A DNA stretch of 47,504 nucleotides from Methanobacteriota archaeon (lineage in GTDB: Bacteria; Myxococcota; UBA727; JABDBI01), in contig JABDBI010000012.1 in NCBI GenBank assembly GCA_013288705.1, forward strand, positions 1 to 47,504, in the 5' to 3' direction. Within the stretch, counting starts at the first letter, position 1, and each line of letters opens with the position of its first letter. Shown one piece after another: positions 12,342 through 41,086 of the stretch. The position numbers and the translations under genes were made by a program. Below the pieces are notes generated by a model, which was given only the letters and a program-made list of their open reading frames with translations, ran no database searches and was not told the origin of the DNA.

Positions 12342-13403
12342 TCATTCCGGGCGGCGGAGTGAATTACCGATTTGAAAGAGCTTGCGCGCCGAGAGATGGA
12401 GAAGTCCGGACAGCATCGAGTCATCTCCTTTGCTGAGGTGCATTAAGGCTTTCTCGATGGTGGATGCAACGCGGCGGACGGTTTCCCGAAGGGAGTCTGA
12501 ATCGCCGAGGTTTTGTTTGAGGGCGAGTTGTAGGCAATTGGCGGTGTTGACGAATTCGCTGACGAAACGCTGTTTGGCGTCGTCGGAGGCGTTTTGTAGG
12601 GCGCGGTTGAGGACCACAAAGTTGCGCCAGTCTGGGGGGATGGTGAAGGGGACGGGGAGGGGGGAAGAATCACCCTCACCCTTGGTCCCTCTCCCGCCTT
12701 GCGGGAGAGGGAGATTCGGACTTATGTAGGCTAGGATGGAAGAGGCTTCGTCGAATGAGGGGAAGCCCATGTCTTGCATGCGGCCGTCGCGCCAGCGAAG
12801 GGCTTCTTCTTCAAGCATTGAGGCTGTTTCAAAGCGGGCGGTTTCGATGAGTCTGAGTACGAACTTGTAGTCACGCTGGTAGAGTTGTTCGATTGTTTGT
12901 TTTAAAAACAGCACCAGATCCTGCTCCGGGGCAGAATCGTCGAAGAAAATCGTATAGTGGCGATCGGGAGTGTCACTGCGGATGGAAGAATCGTCGTTGA
13001 CGTTGTCAAGATCAGCGGTCTCATAAATGCGGGTATACTGCTTGAATAAGAAGCCGCTGAGTGCGATGTCGAGCGCGCAGAATGTTTGCGCAGCACGTCG
13101 GGGATTGGCCATGTGCAGAGCAGCTAGCCAAGGGCCAATGGCGGTGGGATAAATGCTTGGTCCCTGCCAGGCGTCTAAGTCCAGGATTTCTTGCACTTGC
13201 TGCGGGGAGAGAAGTTCCAAAAACTCTAAGCAATCGGTGATGCCGATATCTTTTATTAAAATCAGGACATCTTGCGCAGGCAACGCACGCACCACAGGCA
13301 TCGCGTCTGGCCGGCTAATGAGCGCATCCAGGCGTTCTTTGGGTCGCATCGAAAGCAGTGATTGTTGGATGGCAATAATATCTAGTTTATCCGGCTCGCT
13401 CAT
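12342..13403 (-). CDS. DUF6178 family protein with embedded palindromic repeat
   Basis: This 353-residue soluble, helix-rich protein without a signal peptide opens with repeated short helices (RLDALISRPDAMPVVRALPAQDVLILIKDIG) that look like MgtE-N/HEAT-like units. I assign it to DUF6178, a family of unknown function found mainly in Myxococcota and relatives. Residues 228-247 (SPNLPLPQGGRGTKGEGDSS) come from a GC-rich palindromic repeat inserted in frame and read as a loop just before a FTIPPDWRNFVVLNRAL helix. It lies 49 bases upstream of the subtilase on the same strand and may be transcribed with it. Confidence 0.75.
   Translation of the reverse strand: MSEPDKLDIIAIQQSLLSMRPKERLDALISRPDAMPVVRALPAQDVLILIKDIGITDCLEFLELLSPQQVQEILDLDAWQGPSIYPTAIGPWLAALHMANPRRAAQTFCALDIALSGFLFKQYTRIYETADLDNVNDDSSIRSDTPDRHYTIFFDDSAPEQDLVLFLKQTIEQLYQRDYKFVLRLIETARFETASMLEEEALRWRDGRMQDMGFPSFDEASSILAYISPNLPLPQGGRGTKGEGDSSPLPVPFTIPPDWRNFVVLNRALQNASDDAKQRFVSEFVNTANCLQLALKQNLGDSDSLRETVRRVASTIEKALMHLSKGDDSMLSGLLHLSARKLFQIGNSLRRPE
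12672..12717 (-). repeat. Palindromic repeat, copy A, inside the DUF6178 gene
   Basis: A perfect 11-bp inverted repeat (CCCTCTCCCGC / GCGGGAGAGGG, 3-base loop) is flanked by CCCTCACCCTTGGT on the left and AGATT on the right. Copy B at 22434-22482 has the same flank plus palindrome on the opposite strand, which shows this is a mobile repeat family rather than a chance hairpin. The insertion keeps the host frame open. Confidence 0.8.
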
Positions 13404-19372: not shown

Positions 19373-19630
19373 ATGGCACATAAGAAAGGTCAGGGTTCTA
19401 CCCGTAACGGTCGCGATTCAAATCCCAAATACTTGGGCGTGAAGCGCGGAGATGGCCAGCCTGTAAGGGCCGGCACCATTTTGGTACGCCAACGCGGCAC
19501 CAAGATTAAGCCAAAGAACAATGTGGGCACCGGACGTGACCATACGCTTTTTGCTTTGATCGATGGTGTGGTCGCATACACCCGCGGTTCTGATGATCGC
19601 GTGAGTGCAAGCGTTCTGCCTGTTGCCTAA
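19373..19630 (+). CDS. rpmA: 50S ribosomal protein L27
   Basis: Large-subunit protein whose N-terminus reaches the peptidyl-transferase centre. The 85 residues start [25 protein letters not shown], so the N-terminus is the mature proteobacterial form without the cleaved extension known from Firmicutes. The stop overlaps the stop of the convergent marC by 4 bases (CTAA). Confidence 0.98.
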
Positions 19631-20241
19631 AGGTACGAATGTAAAAATGTGGTGATGCCGCCAGAGAGCATTTTGACGGCCACCAACACACAGATGAGCG
19701 CCATGATGCGCTCACATACTTTTAATCCAGTATTTCCCAAAAGTTTGACGAAGTTTGGCGACAGCACCAAAATGGCTGCGGCTAATAGCCACGCCAAGAA
19801 AATCGCGCTGACGACGATAATCGTGTGCGATGGGTCTACCGCGTCATTTGAATATAAGATCACCGTCGCTAAACTCGACGGGCCGGCGAAAAGCGGGATT
19901 GCGATCGGTACTACATAAGGTTCCTGCTTGGCATGAAGTTCGGGCTTTGCCTTGGGAAACAGCAGGTGTACGGCAAAAGTCATAAAGATAATGCCGCCGG
20001 TAATCTCGATCGCTGCTTGGGAAATATGCAATGCGCTCAAAAACTTTGAGCCACCGATGTAGAAAATGATCAATGCCAGCAGGGCGAATAAGCTCTCTCG
20101 CTTTAAAATGCGCCTTTTTCCGGGGAGGTCATAGGGCTTGAGCAACGTCGCGATGATGCCAATGTTGCCAATGGGATCTAAGATCAAAAAGAGCTGCAGT
20201 GTTTTTGCGAGAACAGCGCTGAAGATGGTGAGATCATTCAT
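19627..20241 (-). CDS. MarC family integral membrane protein (second of a tandem pair)
   Basis: This 204-residue protein has six likely membrane segments. The first carries [17 protein letters not shown], matching the MarC/UPF0056 motif NPIG in spirit, and the second half has [21 protein letters not shown], the other family signature. The family's transport substrate is not established. It lies 5 bases downstream of a related gene on the same strand, so the two probably form one transcript and perhaps a heteromer. Confidence 0.9.
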
Positions 20242-20246
20242 GGCAC

Positions 20247-20846
20247 TTACTCAGCCACGGGACGAAGCAAGATATAAATCTTCAACCCTTTGAGAAACAT
20301 TTCGACAGATAACAATGTGAGAATGAGGCCCATCAGTCTTTCCGCCGCAATGAGAGCTTTGGCGTTCATGCGTTTCCTAAAACGCAGGGCGAACCAAAAA
20401 ACGCTCACGGAGCATACCCATGCGATCAAAATCCCGAAGAGCACTTTCTGCGAGCTTTCTTCGGTATGGGCATAGAGCATGATAGTGGCTGCAATCGACG
20501 GGCCGGCGATCATGGGTGTGGCGAGCGGAACAATAAAAGGATCTTCTTTGTCGAACTTTTCTTCCGGCGCATCTTCTTGCGGAGATATCATCTTGATGGC
20601 AATGAGGAATAAGACAATGCCACCAGAGATCTGGATGGTGGAGTGGCTCACGTCGAGACTTGCCAAGAGAACGTTGCCGAAGAAAAAGAAGAAAACCATG
20701 ATCAAAAGCGCGATTAGCATCTCACGCAGGATGATCCAGCGTTGTTTGGGTTGCGGGATTTGGGAAATGAGATTAAGAAAAGCGGTAATGTGACCGACGG
20801 AATTCATGATCAAGAAAAGCGTGATGGTGAGTGAAAATAGAGACAT
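20247..20846 (-). CDS. MarC family integral membrane protein (first of a tandem pair)
   Basis: This 199-residue relative of the neighbouring MarC protein has LFLIMNSVGHITAFLNLI at the first motif and VPLATPMIAGPSIAATIMLYA at the second. The first-motif Pro is replaced by Ser (NSVG rather than NPIG), which may mark a functional difference from the other copy. A hydrophilic acidic loop (SPQEDAPEEKFDKEDP) separates the two halves. The two copies have clearly diverged, so the duplication is old. Confidence 0.9.
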   Translation of the reverse strand: MSLFSLTITLFLIMNSVGHITAFLNLISQIPQPKQRWIILREMLIALLIMVFFFFFGNVLLASLDVSHSTIQISGGIVLFLIAIKMISPQEDAPEEKFDKEDPFIVPLATPMIAGPSIAATIMLYAHTEESSQKVLFGILIAWVCSVSVFWFALRFRKRMNAKALIAAERLMGLILTLLSVEMFLKGLKIYILLRPVAE

Positions 20847-21614: not shown

Positions 21615-23648
21615 CTATCTTCGCAAACGACTCATCAACGCCGCAAACGTATCAAACTTCAATGCTTGCGGCCCGTCACTCAGCGCCTTCTTTGGCTCCG
21701 GATGCACTTCGACGATAATTCCATGCGCACCAACGGCGAGGGCTGCCTCTGCCAGTGGTGAGATATATTGCCATGTGCCAGCAGCATGGGAAGGATCCAC
21801 AATGACTGGCAAGTGCGTGCGCTCTTTGAGCACGGGAACCGCTGACAAATCGAGTGTGCTGCGCGTTGCAGTTTCGAAGGTTCGAATGCCGCGCTCGCAT
21901 AAAATCACCCGCTGATTGCCATGTGCGAGAATATACTCCGCGGCGTTCAGCCATTCATCAATCGTCGACATGAGCCCACGCTTGAGCATGACCGGCCGAT
22001 CAATGGTGCCAAGCTCCTTGAGCAGCGAGAAGTTTTGCATATTACGCGCACCGATTTGAATAATGTCGGCTTTTTCTGCAACTCTCTTCACATCATTTGG
22101 ATGCATCACTTCAGTAATAATCGGCATCCCATATTGCCGCCCAGCTTCATAAAGCAGATCGAGCCCTTCATATCCCAAGCCCTGAAAGTCATAAGGCGAC
22201 GTACGCGGCTTGAACACGCCGCCACGCAAAATATCCGCCCCACATTCTTTGACCTTCTTGGCCACCGCCATGACTTGCTCCCGCGACTCCACCGAGCAAG
22301 GCCCCGCCATAATCACTGGCCGATCCCCCCCAATCACGACGTGCTGCACCTGAATCAGCGTATCTTCCACCCGCGTCGCCCGCGAAGCCAGCCGATAAGC
22401 TTTCTTCTCGAGCAACTTAATCGTCTCCGCCGAAATCTCCCTCTCCCCCCGTGGGAGAGGGATTAAGGGTGAGGGGGCAATCTCTGCACCCACCTGATTC
22501 CCCCCACCAGTCCTCTCCGGATAAGCCCCAAGCACCTTCAAATACTCCGTCAACCCCGCCAACTCTCGCAACGCCTGCGCAACCCCGTCATTCGCCAAAT
22601 TCCCCTGAAAATCAACATAAAACAAATAATGCCAAGGCACATTCGGCCTAGGCCTAGACTCGAGCTTCGTCAAATTCAACCCATGCGCCGCGAGCACATT
22701 CAGCGCCGACAACAGCGCCCCCTTCTCATCCCGCACGGCGAATATAATCGACGTCTTACACGCCACCCGCGCATCCACCGCTTCCACTTGCTTCGCCACC
22801 ACCACAAACCGCGTATAGTTATCCCGCTGGTTGGCAATATCGCGCTGAATCACATACAGACCAAAGTGCCTTGCCGCCTCTTCGCTCGCGACAGCTGCTT
22901 GCGAAAGATTGCGCTCCTCACGCACTTTCTGCACCGCCATCGCTGTATCGACGTAGCTCTCTACTTGACAATTCTCCAGGCCAGACAAAAACCGACTACA
23001 TTGTAAAAGCGCTTGTGGATGCGAGAGCACACGGCGAATCTGCGAAACATGCACTTCCTCAAGCGCCACTAAACAATGCTCAACCTTAAAAATCTCCTCG
23101 CCCACAACTTTTACGTCCATTTGTGCGAGCAGGTCGTATGCCTCATTGATAGAACCAGCAGTGGTATTCTCGACGGGCAGCATGCCATAATCCAATGCCC
23201 CATCACGCACAGCTGCCATCATGTCAGCGAACGTCTCGTATCCACGCAACTGTAGCGCCTTGCCCAACGATCCGAAGTGCTGCTTAGCAGCGAGTGAACT
23301 ATAGGCACCTTCGGTACCCTGATAGCCGATACGCAGCGCGCCTGCTTGTTCAGGAGGCACACGATCGCGAAAGCGTTCTTCTTGTATGCGTACAGAATGG
23401 TTCATGATGTCGCGGTAGAGTTTACCCACGAAGTAAGTATCTAGACCGAGATCACCGGCAAGCTCTGTGAGATGTTGCAAGACAGCAGTTTCGCGTAATT
23501 CATCGCGAATTTGTGGCGCGCTCTCATGCTTGGATTCAGCAATCTGCGCAACCAAGTTCTCTCGCTTGGCGAGCGCCTCAATGACCGCACGATCGGCTTG
23601 ATCTATCTCGGTGCGGAGTGTTTCGATTGTTTTGTTTTTCTGATTCAC
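21615..23648 (-). CDS. Chorismate mutase / prephenate dehydratase / ACT / DAHP synthase fusion
   Basis: A 677-residue fusion of the Phe branch with the first shikimate-pathway step. Order: AroQ chorismate mutase (about 1-90), prephenate dehydratase (about 105-285, TRF at 279-281), ACT domain (about 298-372, with GAL and LESRP motifs that bind Phe in P-proteins), a linker, and a type I-beta DAHP synthase (about 410-677, GPCSVES at 449-455, [15 protein letters not shown], and DPSHAAG). The linker (390-406) is built from an in-frame palindromic repeat. It starts with GTG after AAGGAG. It lies behind a Phe leader-peptide attenuator, so both transcription and activity are probably Phe-controlled. 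Confidence 0.93.
22434..22482 (-). repeat. Palindromic repeat, copy B, in the linker of the aromatic fusion gene
   Basis: A perfect 10-bp inverted repeat (TCCCTCTCCC, 22438-22447; GGGAGAGGGA, 22453-22462) is followed by TTAAGGGTGAGGG. Its reverse complement matches copy A at 12672-12717 through the CCCTCACCC flank and the palindrome, so the two copies lie in opposite orientation. It encodes [17 protein letters not shown] between the ACT and DAHP synthase domains. Confidence 0.8.
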
Positions 23649-23687: not shown

Positions 23688-23717
23688 AAGGCCTCAGCTT
23701 TTGTTCGCTGGGGCCTT
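23688..23717 (-). terminator. Attenuator terminator (arms 3:4) upstream of the aromatic fusion gene
   Basis: In the minus-strand RNA AAGGCCCCAGC pairs with GCTGAGGCCTT (10 pairs, one C-A mismatch, 8-base loop), followed by ATTTGTTGG. The U-run is modest. It lies between the Phe leader peptide and the GTG start and is the conditional terminator of the attenuator. Confidence 0.75.
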
Positions 23718-23774
23718 TTTTCGGGCTTATGTGTTGACTAACTACACCCGCATCCCCAGCTTCGCAAAGAAGCT
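23707..23774 (-). promoter_or_regulatory. Attenuator arms 1:2 (pause hairpin) and 2:3 (antiterminator)
   Basis: Arm 1 AGCTTC (23774-23769, inside the Phe-codon run) pairs perfectly with GAAGCT (23763-23758). The overlapping arm 2, GCTGGGG (23760-23754), is perfectly complementary to CCCCAGC (23713-23707), the 5' side of the terminator. A ribosome stalled on the Phe codons would cover arm 1, free arm 2 to pair with arm 3 and prevent the terminator. Confidence 0.72.
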
Positions 23775-23810
23775 AAAAAAGAATGGGAATGTAAATGTTG
23801 GGCAACGCAT
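23742..23810 (-). CDS. Phenylalanine leader peptide
   Basis: A 22-codon frame starting with ATG at 23810 and ending TAG. It begins MRCPTFTFPFFFSFF and ends AKLGMRV. Phe occupies codons 6, 8, 10, 11, 12, 14 and 15, seven in all, comparable with the E. coli PheL peptide. It lies in front of a gene with chorismate mutase and prephenate dehydratase domains, as pheL does, and is followed by mutually exclusive hairpins. There is no ribosome binding site, but a promoter ends only 8 bases before the ATG, so the message may be leaderless. Its role is to sense charged tRNA-Phe by ribosome stalling. The family context makes the assignment strong; expression is untested. Confidence 0.85.
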   Translation of the reverse strand: MRCPTFTFPFFFSFFAKLGMRV

Positions 23811-23818
23811 AGGCGACC

Positions 23819-23846
23819 AGTATGGAGGGGCAACCCGAAAAGTCAA
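23819..23846 (-). promoter_or_regulatory. Promoter of the Phe leader and aromatic fusion gene
   Basis: On the minus strand TTGACT (23846-23841, 5 of 6), a 16-base spacer and CATACT (23824-23819, 4 of 6). The -35 overlaps the stop codon of the DNase II gene. The predicted transcript starts at or one or two bases before the leader ATG. Confidence 0.6.
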
Positions 23847-38867: not shown

Positions 38868-39992
38868 TTAGCGGCTCAATTCGCAATGGGAAACTCGGTT
38901 TTTGCGAAACGCATCAAATTTTCCCTGAGCGATCGCCTCGCGTGCTTGAGTCATCAGTGTTAAGTAATATTGCGTATTATGAATACTCGCCAAGCGATAA
39001 AAAAGAAGTTCCTCGCAGACAAATAAATGACGCAAGTAAGCTTTCGAGAATGTGCGGCAAGTATAGCAACTGCAATCTTCATCGAGCTGCGTTTGATCTT
39101 CTCGGTATTGGGCAGTTTTGATTGATACTTTTCCCCGAGACGTGAAGAGGGAGCCGTTGCGCGCATTGCGGGTGGGCATGACACAGTCAAACATATCGAC
39201 CCCCAGCGCAATGCCATCTAGCAGGTCTTCTGGTGTGCCCACGCCCATCAAATAACGTGGCTTATTTTGCGGCATATGGGCGGTGGTTGCGGCGCAGGCT
39301 CGCCACATATCTTCCTTGGCTTCTCCTACGCTGAGACCACCAATGGCGTAGCCAAATAGATTGCTTTGACAGATCTCCTGCGCATGTTCTGCGCGGAGAT
39401 CGTCATAGATGGCACCCTGGATAATCCCCAGTAGGCGGGAGTTTGGCCGATCCATCGTAGCGGTGCAACGCTTGAGCCACGCCGAGGTTTTGTCCATCGC
39501 TGCGCGCACATCGTCACGTGAGCTCTTGCCGGGTGGGCATTGATCGAAGGCCATGATGAAGTCAGCGCCCAGATCCATTTGGATGGCCATGCTTACCTCG
39601 GGTGTGACGCGATGGATCGATCCATCGATATAGCTTCGAAAGGTAACGCCGTCTTCATCGATCTCGACAAGTGTTTGTTTGCCCTGTGCGAGTGAAAATA
39701 CTTGGAAACCACCGGAGTCGGTTAAAATGGGTCCCTTCCAAGACATGAATGTGTGCAGCCCACCCATGCGCTTGACGAGTTCTGCGCCTGGGCGAAGCAT
39801 GAGGTGATAAGTGTTGCCGAGCAGAATTTGCGTGCCGGCAGCGGTTAAGTCATCCGGGCCGAGGCTTTTCACGGAGCCTCGTGTCCCAACTGGCATAAAT
39901 ACCGGGGTCTCGATAACGCCATGTGGCGTGTTGATGCGTCCGCGCCGAGCGAGGCCATCGGTGCTGAGCAGCTCAAAAGAAAATTCACTCAT
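38868..39992 (-). CDS. tgt: Queuine/preQ1 tRNA-guanine transglycosylase
   Basis: Swaps guanine-34 for preQ1 in tRNAs with GUN anticodons. DSGGFQVFSL carries the nucleophile region, GLSVGEAKEDMW and RYLMGVGTPEDLLDGIALGVDMFDCVMPTRNARNG (in parts) the substrate site, and CSCYTC ... HLF.CEELLFYRLASIHN the zinc site with its three Cys and His. The 374 residues are standard. Its start overlaps the queA stop (ATGA), and queA makes the next queuosine precursor, so the two enzymes act in sequence on the same base. Confidence 0.97.
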   Translation of the reverse strand: MSEFSFELLSTDGLARRGRINTPHGVIETPVFMPVGTRGSVKSLGPDDLTAAGTQILLGNTYHLMLRPGAELVKRMGGLHTFMSWKGPILTDSGGFQVFSLAQGKQTLVEIDEDGVTFRSYIDGSIHRVTPEVSMAIQMDLGADFIMAFDQCPPGKSSRDDVRAAMDKTSAWLKRCTATMDRPNSRLLGIIQGAIYDDLRAEHAQEICQSNLFGYAIGGLSVGEAKEDMWRACAATTAHMPQNKPRYLMGVGTPEDLLDGIALGVDMFDCVMPTRNARNGSLFTSRGKVSIKTAQYREDQTQLDEDCSCYTCRTFSKAYLRHLFVCEELLFYRLASIHNTQYYLTLMTQAREAIAQGKFDAFRKNRVSHCELSR

Positions 39993-41086
39993 TTTGCATC
40001 GTCCACGACGTCAAAAAAACAGGCGTCACCATAAGAGAAGAATCGATATTGTTCCTGCATGGCTTCTCCATAGGCGGCTAGCATGCGCTCACGCCCGATC
40101 GCCGCTGCGACGAGCATTAATAGTGTCGTTTTTGGGAGGTGAAAATTTGTAACAAATGCGTCGACAGCACGAAAGCGAAAACCCGGTCGTATGAATAGCT
40201 TTGAAAGTCCAGAGGACGCGCAAAATTCTCCCGCTTGAGAAGCCGTTTCCAGAAGTCGAACGCTCGTCGTTCCGACCGCAACAATTCTTTTACCCGTCGC
40301 CCGGGTCTGATTCAATGTCTCTGCTGCTTCGCTAGAGAGCGACCATATCTCGCCATGCATCTTGTGTTCATCAAGATTTTCTGTTCGTACCGGCAGAAAT
40401 GTCCCCGGCCCCACATGCAATGTGACGTAAACAATGGATACGCCCATTGCTTTGATCTTTTCAAGCATATCCTCGTCAAAGTGAAGCCCCGCTGTGGGTG
40501 CAGCAACCGCACGTTGTTCGGCACTTTGCGCGAACACCGTCTGATAACGCTCCGCATCACTCGCATCGGGTTGGCGATCAATATAGGGAGGCAATGGTAG
40601 TTCGCCAAATTGATTGGCAAAGCCCATGATGTCGCCGTCGAATCGCACCCGATATGCCCCGGGCTCATCATCAAGCTTACACAAGACCGTCGCAATTAAT
40701 TCCCCCTTTGGAAAAGGGGGCAGGGGGATTTTTGAAGATTGCACCAGGATCTTCGTCCCCGGTTTAGCCCCCCGACGCGCTGCAACCAAACATATCCAAG
40801 AACCATCCGGTTCTGGCCGCGAGAGCAAAATCTCGACGCTGCCACCTGTCTCCGCTTTTTTGCCAGTTAGGCGTGCAGGAAAAACCTTGGTATTGTTGAG
40901 CACCAATGCGTCGCCCGGACACAAGTACTGCAAGAGATTTCTAAATTGGTCGTGCTTGGGCTCAGCCATGTTTTTGCCAAGCACCATCAAGCGCGAATCT
41001 GAACGGTTAGCAAGCGGACGCTTCGCAATGAGACGGTCCGGGAGAACAAAGTCGTATGCGGAGAGCTGATTTAAAAACTCGGCCAT
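39989..41086 (-). CDS. queA: S-adenosylmethionine:tRNA ribosyltransferase-isomerase
   Basis: Adds the cyclopentendiol-precursor ring to preQ1 in tRNA. Recognised by AYDFVLPDRLIAKRPLANRSDSRLMVL in pieces, LVLNNTKVFPARLTGKK, APTAGLHFDEDMLEKI and HVGPGTFLPVRTENLDEHKMHGE in pieces. At 365 residues it is a little long. Residues 118-129 (SKIPLPPFPKGE) come from a palindromic insert (40700-40732) in a surface loop. The ATG follows directly on the stop of the upstream helicase gene (TAAATG). Confidence 0.96.
   Translation of the reverse strand: MAEFLNQLSAYDFVLPDRLIAKRPLANRSDSRLMVLGKNMAEPKHDQFRNLLQYLCPGDALVLNNTKVFPARLTGKKAETGGSVEILLSRPEPDGSWICLVAARRGAKPGTKILVQSSKIPLPPFPKGELIATVLCKLDDEPGAYRVRFDGDIMGFANQFGELPLPPYIDRQPDASDAERYQTVFAQSAEQRAVAAPTAGLHFDEDMLEKIKAMGVSIVYVTLHVGPGTFLPVRTENLDEHKMHGEIWSLSSEAAETLNQTRATGKRIVAVGTTSVRLLETASQAGEFCASSGLSKLFIRPGFRFRAVDAFVTNFHLPKTTLLMLVAAAIGRERMLAAYGEAMQEQYRFFSYGDACFFDVVDDAK
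40700..40732 (-). repeat. Palindromic repeat, copy C, of a second type, inside queA
   Basis: CCCCCTTT (40702-40709) and AAAGGGGG (40713-40720) form a perfect 8-bp inverted repeat with a 3-base loop, followed by CAGGGGGA. Its sequence differs from copies A and B. It reads as a Pro/Lys-rich loop in QueA that other family members do not have, as far as I recall. Confidence 0.65.

Follow-up and report, generated by a model that had tools for sequence, protein, structure and literature searches.

A probable ribosome-mediated phenylalanine attenuator ahead of a chorismate mutase/prephenate dehydratase/DAHP synthase fusion gene, and aromatic leaders before related Acidobacteriota fusions

Is the gene that fuses DAHP synthase to the Phe-branch enzymes controlled by a Phe-sensing leader? 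This question is raised by the minus strand of the window, the whole 47,504-nt stretch of DNA that was analysed, in which an initial annotation had proposed ribosome-mediated Phe attenuation. Phe attenuators are known from gamma-proteobacteria, and Phe-leader attenuation is best known at the enteric pheA, where PheL combines a Phe-rich leader peptide, alternative hairpins and a terminator with a chorismate mutase/prephenate dehydratase gene. Using Pfam and NCBIfam, the gene at 23648-21615 (minus strand, GTG start at 23648) was found to encode a 677-aa fusion of chorismate mutase, prephenate dehydratase, an ACT domain and type I DAHP synthase, in this order (Pfam CM_2 11-90, PDT 107-287, ACT 299-364 and DAHP_synth_1 433-671); Pfam thus confirms the three-enzyme fusion that had been named downstream of the leader and places an ACT domain besides. 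Besides the fusion, no type I DAHP synthase was found in the assembly (74% complete), and a class II DAHP synthase is present in the same genome, in a 4-aminobenzoate-type cluster. The earlier idea that the first shikimate step is controlled here is thus right for the main type I enzyme but not for all DAHP synthesis, and the attenuator would govern only the type I enzyme found, not every shikimate entry route. Because this DAHP synthase belongs to the same protein, the first shikimate step and the Phe-specific steps would be joined under one sensor.

The leader peptide frame at 23810-23742 (minus strand) encodes MRCPTFTFPFFFSFFAKLGMRV in 22 codons followed by a stop (ATG CGT TGC CCA ACA TTT ACA TTC CCA TTC TTT TTT AGC TTC TTT GCG AAG CTG GGG ATG CGG GTG TAG), with seven Phe codons at positions 6, 8, 10, 11, 12, 14 and 15, and so lies where the initial annotation had put a 22-codon, seven-Phe frame. 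Among the 555 small ATG frames of the window, it alone contains at least five Phe codons. Based on the Phe usage of the window's own genes, the probability of at least seven Phe in 21 codons is 1.8e-5 per frame, and about 0.01 frames as Phe-rich as this one would be expected over all 555. The promoter that had been proposed ahead of the frame was recovered by a consensus scan as a promoter-like site at 23846-23819 (minus strand), consisting of a -35 box TTGACT (23846-23841), a 16-nt spacer and a -10 box CATACT (23824-23819), with 9/12 consensus matches (shuffles mean 0.4). The leader ATG lies only 8 nt past the -10 box and no Shine-Dalgarno (SD) sequence is seen before it, which suggests that the leader mRNA, with its start site placed from the promoter boxes only, may be leaderless. 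In the related locus L210, comparable TTGACA-N-CACAAT boxes lie 9 nt upstream of the leader ATG.

The whole leader RNA folds more stably than 200/200 shuffles (z = -4.86), and the computed folds and energies indicated that its protector, antiterminator and terminator helices share segments and are mutually exclusive. The protector or pause hairpin 1:2 (23792-23744, minus strand) has the core AGCTTC 23774-23769 / GAAGCT 23763-23758, extends over codons 7 to 23 and is predicted at -18.5 kcal/mol. Antiterminator 2:3 (23760-23707, minus strand) pairs GCTGGGG 23760-23754 with CCCCAGC 23713-23707, adds an inner CGGGT/GCCCG helix and is predicted at -20.9 kcal/mol; both pairings had been noticed earlier and are borne out by the folding. 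When the peptide was held fixed, hairpin 1:2 was matched by 0 of 2000 synonymous recodings and antiterminator 2:3 by 0.5% of 2000, which argues that the RNA pairing is no by-product of the peptide. The terminator-like hairpin 3:4 (23717-23688, minus strand; AAGGCC-C-CAGC / GCTG-A-GGCCTT) is followed by the tail TTATTTGTT at about 23689-23681. As a terminator it is imperfect: a hairpin containing the CCCCAGC arm, predicted at -17.6 kcal/mol and with a T-rich tail, is present, but its T-run is interrupted and its stem has an internal C-A mismatch, owing to which it is absent from the list of the consensus terminator scanner.

Beyond what the initial annotation had listed (which also did not include the 8-nt spacing of the leader ATG from the -10 box), two further hairpins were predicted towards the fusion gene. 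The alternative hairpin 4:5 (23699-23666, minus strand) pairs the terminator 3′ arm with the SD hairpin's 5′ arm (23699-23685 / 23680-23666) through 15 uninterrupted base pairs and a 4-nt loop, at -22.9 kcal/mol, a stability reached by 0/5000 sequences with a shuffled 3′ side (their mean was -7.6, with sd 2.5). The SD-masking hairpin 5:SD (23676-23652, minus strand; GGGTCTC 23676-23670 / GAGACCC 23658-23652) involves the SD of the fusion, AGGAG at 23660-23656 (minus strand), and its predicted energy of -12.0 kcal/mol was equalled by 0.1% of shuffles. The 4:5 / 5:SD arrangement is predicted from one sequence, that of the window, and would probably add a translational layer.

The dependence of these folds on the ribosome was computed by equilibrium folding of a single sequence with a simple footprint model. 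For RNA reaching up to segment 3, protector 1:2 forms in the ribosome-free fold; with ribosome cover, the probability of antiterminator 2:3 is near 1 for P-site codons 4-12, 0.6 at codon 13 and near 0 at codons 14-22. The antiterminator that had been expected to depend on ribosome cover thus appears with the ribosome at codons 4-12 and not at 14-22, which fits an attenuator that senses stalling at Phe codons 6, 8, 10, 11 and 12, and in these folds segment 2 becomes free when the ribosome stalls at the regulatory codons, but not when it stands at the stop codon. In the full leader, stalling at codons 8-12 gave 2:3 together with 4:5 at 0.72-0.98, and the remaining ribosome positions favoured 3:4 together with the SD hairpin, so that 2:3 and 4:5 rise and fall jointly. 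A weak 3-bp hairpin still contacts the SD in the ON fold, and SD release would therefore be partial.

From these models we infer leader-frame translation, termination and a Phe response that would proceed as follows. When Phe-tRNA is plentiful, the ribosome would reach the stop codon and cover segment 2 or let it close; with segment 2 unavailable, terminator 3:4 would form and transcription would tend to stop, and in any read-through RNA the SD of the fusion would be hidden by 5:SD. When Phe-tRNA is short, the ribosome would stall at Phe codons 6-12, covering segment 1, and 2:3 would form; this would block terminator 3:4, the freed 3′ arm would pair with segment 5, and formation of 4:5 would largely release the SD. 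The predicted OFF state of the chain is thus 1:2, 3:4 and 5:SD, and the ON state 2:3 and 4:5, and the Phe sensor may act on the fusion gene at the level of transcription as well as translation. Such a chain would be a simple design, in which one stall sets transcription and translation.

Recurrence of the leader was examined in the window's own phylum and before related fusions. With the fusion as query against 195 genomes of the window's phylum, the matches listed included no second full-length fusion, and no comparable leader was seen in the regions upstream of same-phylum pheA genes in about 20 relatives, of which three belong to the same family. Further copies of the leader were not found in the genome; nor were W, Leu/Ile/Val or His leaders, sought only as cognate-rich small frames, before its own trpE, leuA, ilvB and hisG, genes that may not be operon-first, which suggests that attenuation is no general habit of this genome. 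The Rfam model Phe_leader (RF01859) gave no gathering-score match; with the threshold relaxed to E 10, the minus strand still had none and the opposite strand had one 16.7-bit match (E 4.1), and eight related loci matched no Rfam family. Nothing convincing was seen upstream of Selenomonad two-domain fusions. In a Chloroflexi MAG (L064, 131-285 and onward), a leader frame MHFKMPSTPAWFYGYYFFYASHRARGRVITP in which Trp, Phe and Tyr codons occur together is followed by a terminator (GGCGTGGG..CCCACGCC, T-run), and the downstream genes are separate: an AroH-like chorismate mutase, a prephenate dehydratase and a DAHP synthase.

Named genomes with the full fusion comprised a Vicinamibacteria MAG and Ignavibacteria-type MAGs. 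The six Ignavibacteria-type fusions (L032-L037) have no leader and no aromatic enrichment. Upstream of the Vicinamibacteria fusion, a small frame and a strong terminator were present, and the class and phylum of this MAG were therefore searched for the fusion, which was found in 6/193 and 17/396 genomes, respectively. Readable upstream regions were available for 21 Acidobacteriota fusions; a leader frame judged aromatic-bearing precedes 11 of these and no leader precedes the other 10, and a strong terminator follows the frame in 8 of the 11, that of L229 being read from sequence and fold. The aromatic-run threshold misses cluster A, L232 and L233, which were included by eye on terminator and position, and because this criterion is softer, all 21 regions were put through the shuffle test, unselected and with the window left out. 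The combined p for aromatic enrichment was 5.7e-6, carried by L216, L217, L228, L229, L219, L226 and L218; some of the 21 regions come from related genomes, so that this value does not reflect fully independent tests, and L226 is classed as having no leader, so that single-locus p values are not to be over-read.

The Acidobacteriota leader frames include MLIAGVFSTFAFGFFKARGRLPGE, MFTATFAFTRAFRRFTRRGRELG, MRMFYAFTCAAGRFYFGFGGGLGKAGA and MQVAAKTSRPTFCGTFFFFFGA; others end in RYFYFGA and RFFYFGA, one carries RFFLFT and one IYCFGNF, and a leader MN(I/V)AKSRGRFVFTSSxGAGGGxV is conserved across three Acidobacteriota genomes. The frames with RFVFTSS, RFFLFT and IYCFGNF have few aromatic codons and did not beat the shuffles (per-locus p 0.18-0.39), and the leader of the closest relatives, L210, L214 and L215, has only two or three Phe. 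The near-identical, Phe-poor peptide of these three loci (RFVFTSSxGAGGG) is a possible arrest peptide. In L216, L217 and L218, whose leaders end in FGA and the stop, a GGCGC-YTAR-CGCGCC hairpin over the stop codon takes the place of a clear terminator, perhaps pointing to a different mode of control. Folding of the related leaders gave an antiterminator with the same stall dependence as in the window for L229, and a weaker one for L228 and L215. By the averaged pairing of the terminator 5′ arm, the states were well separated in L229, moderately in L228 and L215 and poorly in L219, L232 and L233, and the folds thus support an antiterminator in only some of the relatives. The expectation that the Phe-rich frame and hairpins are kept in relatives thus failed for same-phylum pheA and held before Acidobacteriota fusions as a recurrence of architecture, not of sequence.

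In a tree of 25 fusions, built without L231, L232 and L233, the window's protein clusters with those of L210, L214 and L215 (support 96/94) within the Acidobacteriota fusions; its branch is long (0.71), which leaves its exact placement unsure. Since it lies inside the Acidobacteriota group, horizontal transfer is the simplest reading, and the tree suggests that the fusion gene was transferred, probably with the attenuator moving along. Leader presence amounts to four changes on the tree, and the clade L220-L227 has no leader.

Collectively, the leader is best explained as a ribosome-mediated Phe attenuator that acts on the fusion gene, a reading in which we have high confidence. Its basis is the parts, their predicted energies, the ribosome-position dependence and the recurrence before related fusions; the mechanism first proposed is in line with the anatomy, with the stall-dependent fold and with the presence of aromatic leaders and terminators ahead of related fusions. 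That there is no Phe sensor at all, the frame being Phe-rich by chance in a T-rich tract or translated only to aid the downstream gene, appears very improbable: the leader ATG has no SD and translation of the frame is a prediction, but the frame is unique in the window, the RNA pairing exceeds what the peptide demands, and the stall-dependent fold and the recurrence in relatives speak for sensing.

Within Phe attenuation, the weight of the SD layer can be read in different ways. A plain transcription attenuator, in which 1:2, 2:3 and 3:4 act and 4:5 and 5:SD are by-products of the similar segments 3 and 5, is quite possible, if below an even chance; the classical parts alone would explain regulation, and by inspection no obvious 4:5 / SD arrangement was seen in the Acidobacteriota attenuators looked at. 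However, a 15-bp 4:5 hairpin so far outside the shuffles, the rarity of the SD hairpin among them and the change of 2:3 and 4:5 in step in the full-leader fold are at odds with mere by-products, and a second gate would be of use if the terminator leaks. A mainly translational switch, in which termination is weak and masking and freeing of the SD do most of the work, is unlikely; the flawed, scanner-negative terminator and the strength of the SD hairpin and 4:5 would suit it, but the terminator hairpin is still substantial in predicted energy with its T-rich tail, and strong terminators occur in 8 related leaders. To the fuller reading, a six-segment chain in which one Phe-codon stall stops termination and unmasks the SD, on a leaderless frame and as a branch of Acidobacteriota aromatic attenuators passed with the fusion gene to another phylum, we give close to an even chance.

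The proposed Phe attenuator has in common with the enteric pheA leader (RF01859) a Phe-rich leader, alternative hairpins, a terminator and a chorismate mutase/prephenate dehydratase target, and differs in that the target adds DAHP synthase, in its phylum, in having no minus-strand Rfam match, and in its possible leaderless frame and predicted SD-masking layer. In Sinorhizobium meliloti rnTrpL/trpL, the leader-frame ATG is the RNA 5′ end (PMC7298713), an arrangement that the window may share, its ATG lying 8 nt past a -10 box from which the start site is deduced; the amino acid in the window is Phe, not Trp. In Bacillus subtilis tlrB (yxjB), stalling of a ribosome on the leader peptide lifts termination as well as masking of the SD (PMC6851288); tlrB, however, senses tylosin via an arrest motif, no antiterminator was identified for it and its hairpins are blocked directly by the stalled ribosome, whereas in the window an amino acid would be sensed through a predicted chain of alternative helices. 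SD masking also controls amino-acid metabolism genes through translational T-boxes (ileS) and LEU elements of Actinobacteria (PMC1262725), but T-boxes bind tRNA directly and LEU elements are pseudoknots, both unlike the window leader; the same study lists Phe among the amino acids under attenuator control and, for actinobacterial Phe operons, reports no RNA element. According to a 2010 survey, almost no predicted Acidobacteria attenuator had a known function, and the leader-peptide systems known until then came from Proteobacteria and Actinobacteria only, to which that survey added Firmicutes (PMC2965389). Judged against the open-licence literature, in which a published Acidobacteriota case may be missed, the kind of attenuator is known and the lineage, gene and variant look new. 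With the loci described here, aromatic attenuators outside Proteobacteria, Actinobacteria and Firmicutes become a set that is named and can be tested.

Some minor observations concern the genome and the window. Contig C5 of the same genome (L238/L239/L162) carries an adenylation domain fused to a class II DAHP synthase, next to an AurF-like 4-aminobenzoate N-oxygenase and PabAB- and PabC-like genes (read from the sequences), likely a secondary-metabolite cluster in a small genome. In the window, the linker between PDT/ACT and DAHP synthase (about 22430-22480) contains a palindrome, CCCTCTCCC-ACGG-GGGAGAGGG, translated as 12 residues, and peptide stretches resembling its translation occur in the ORFs at 12342-13403 and 39989-41086. 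At 19627-20846, two adjoining minus-strand genes resemble MarC-type membrane proteins by eye.
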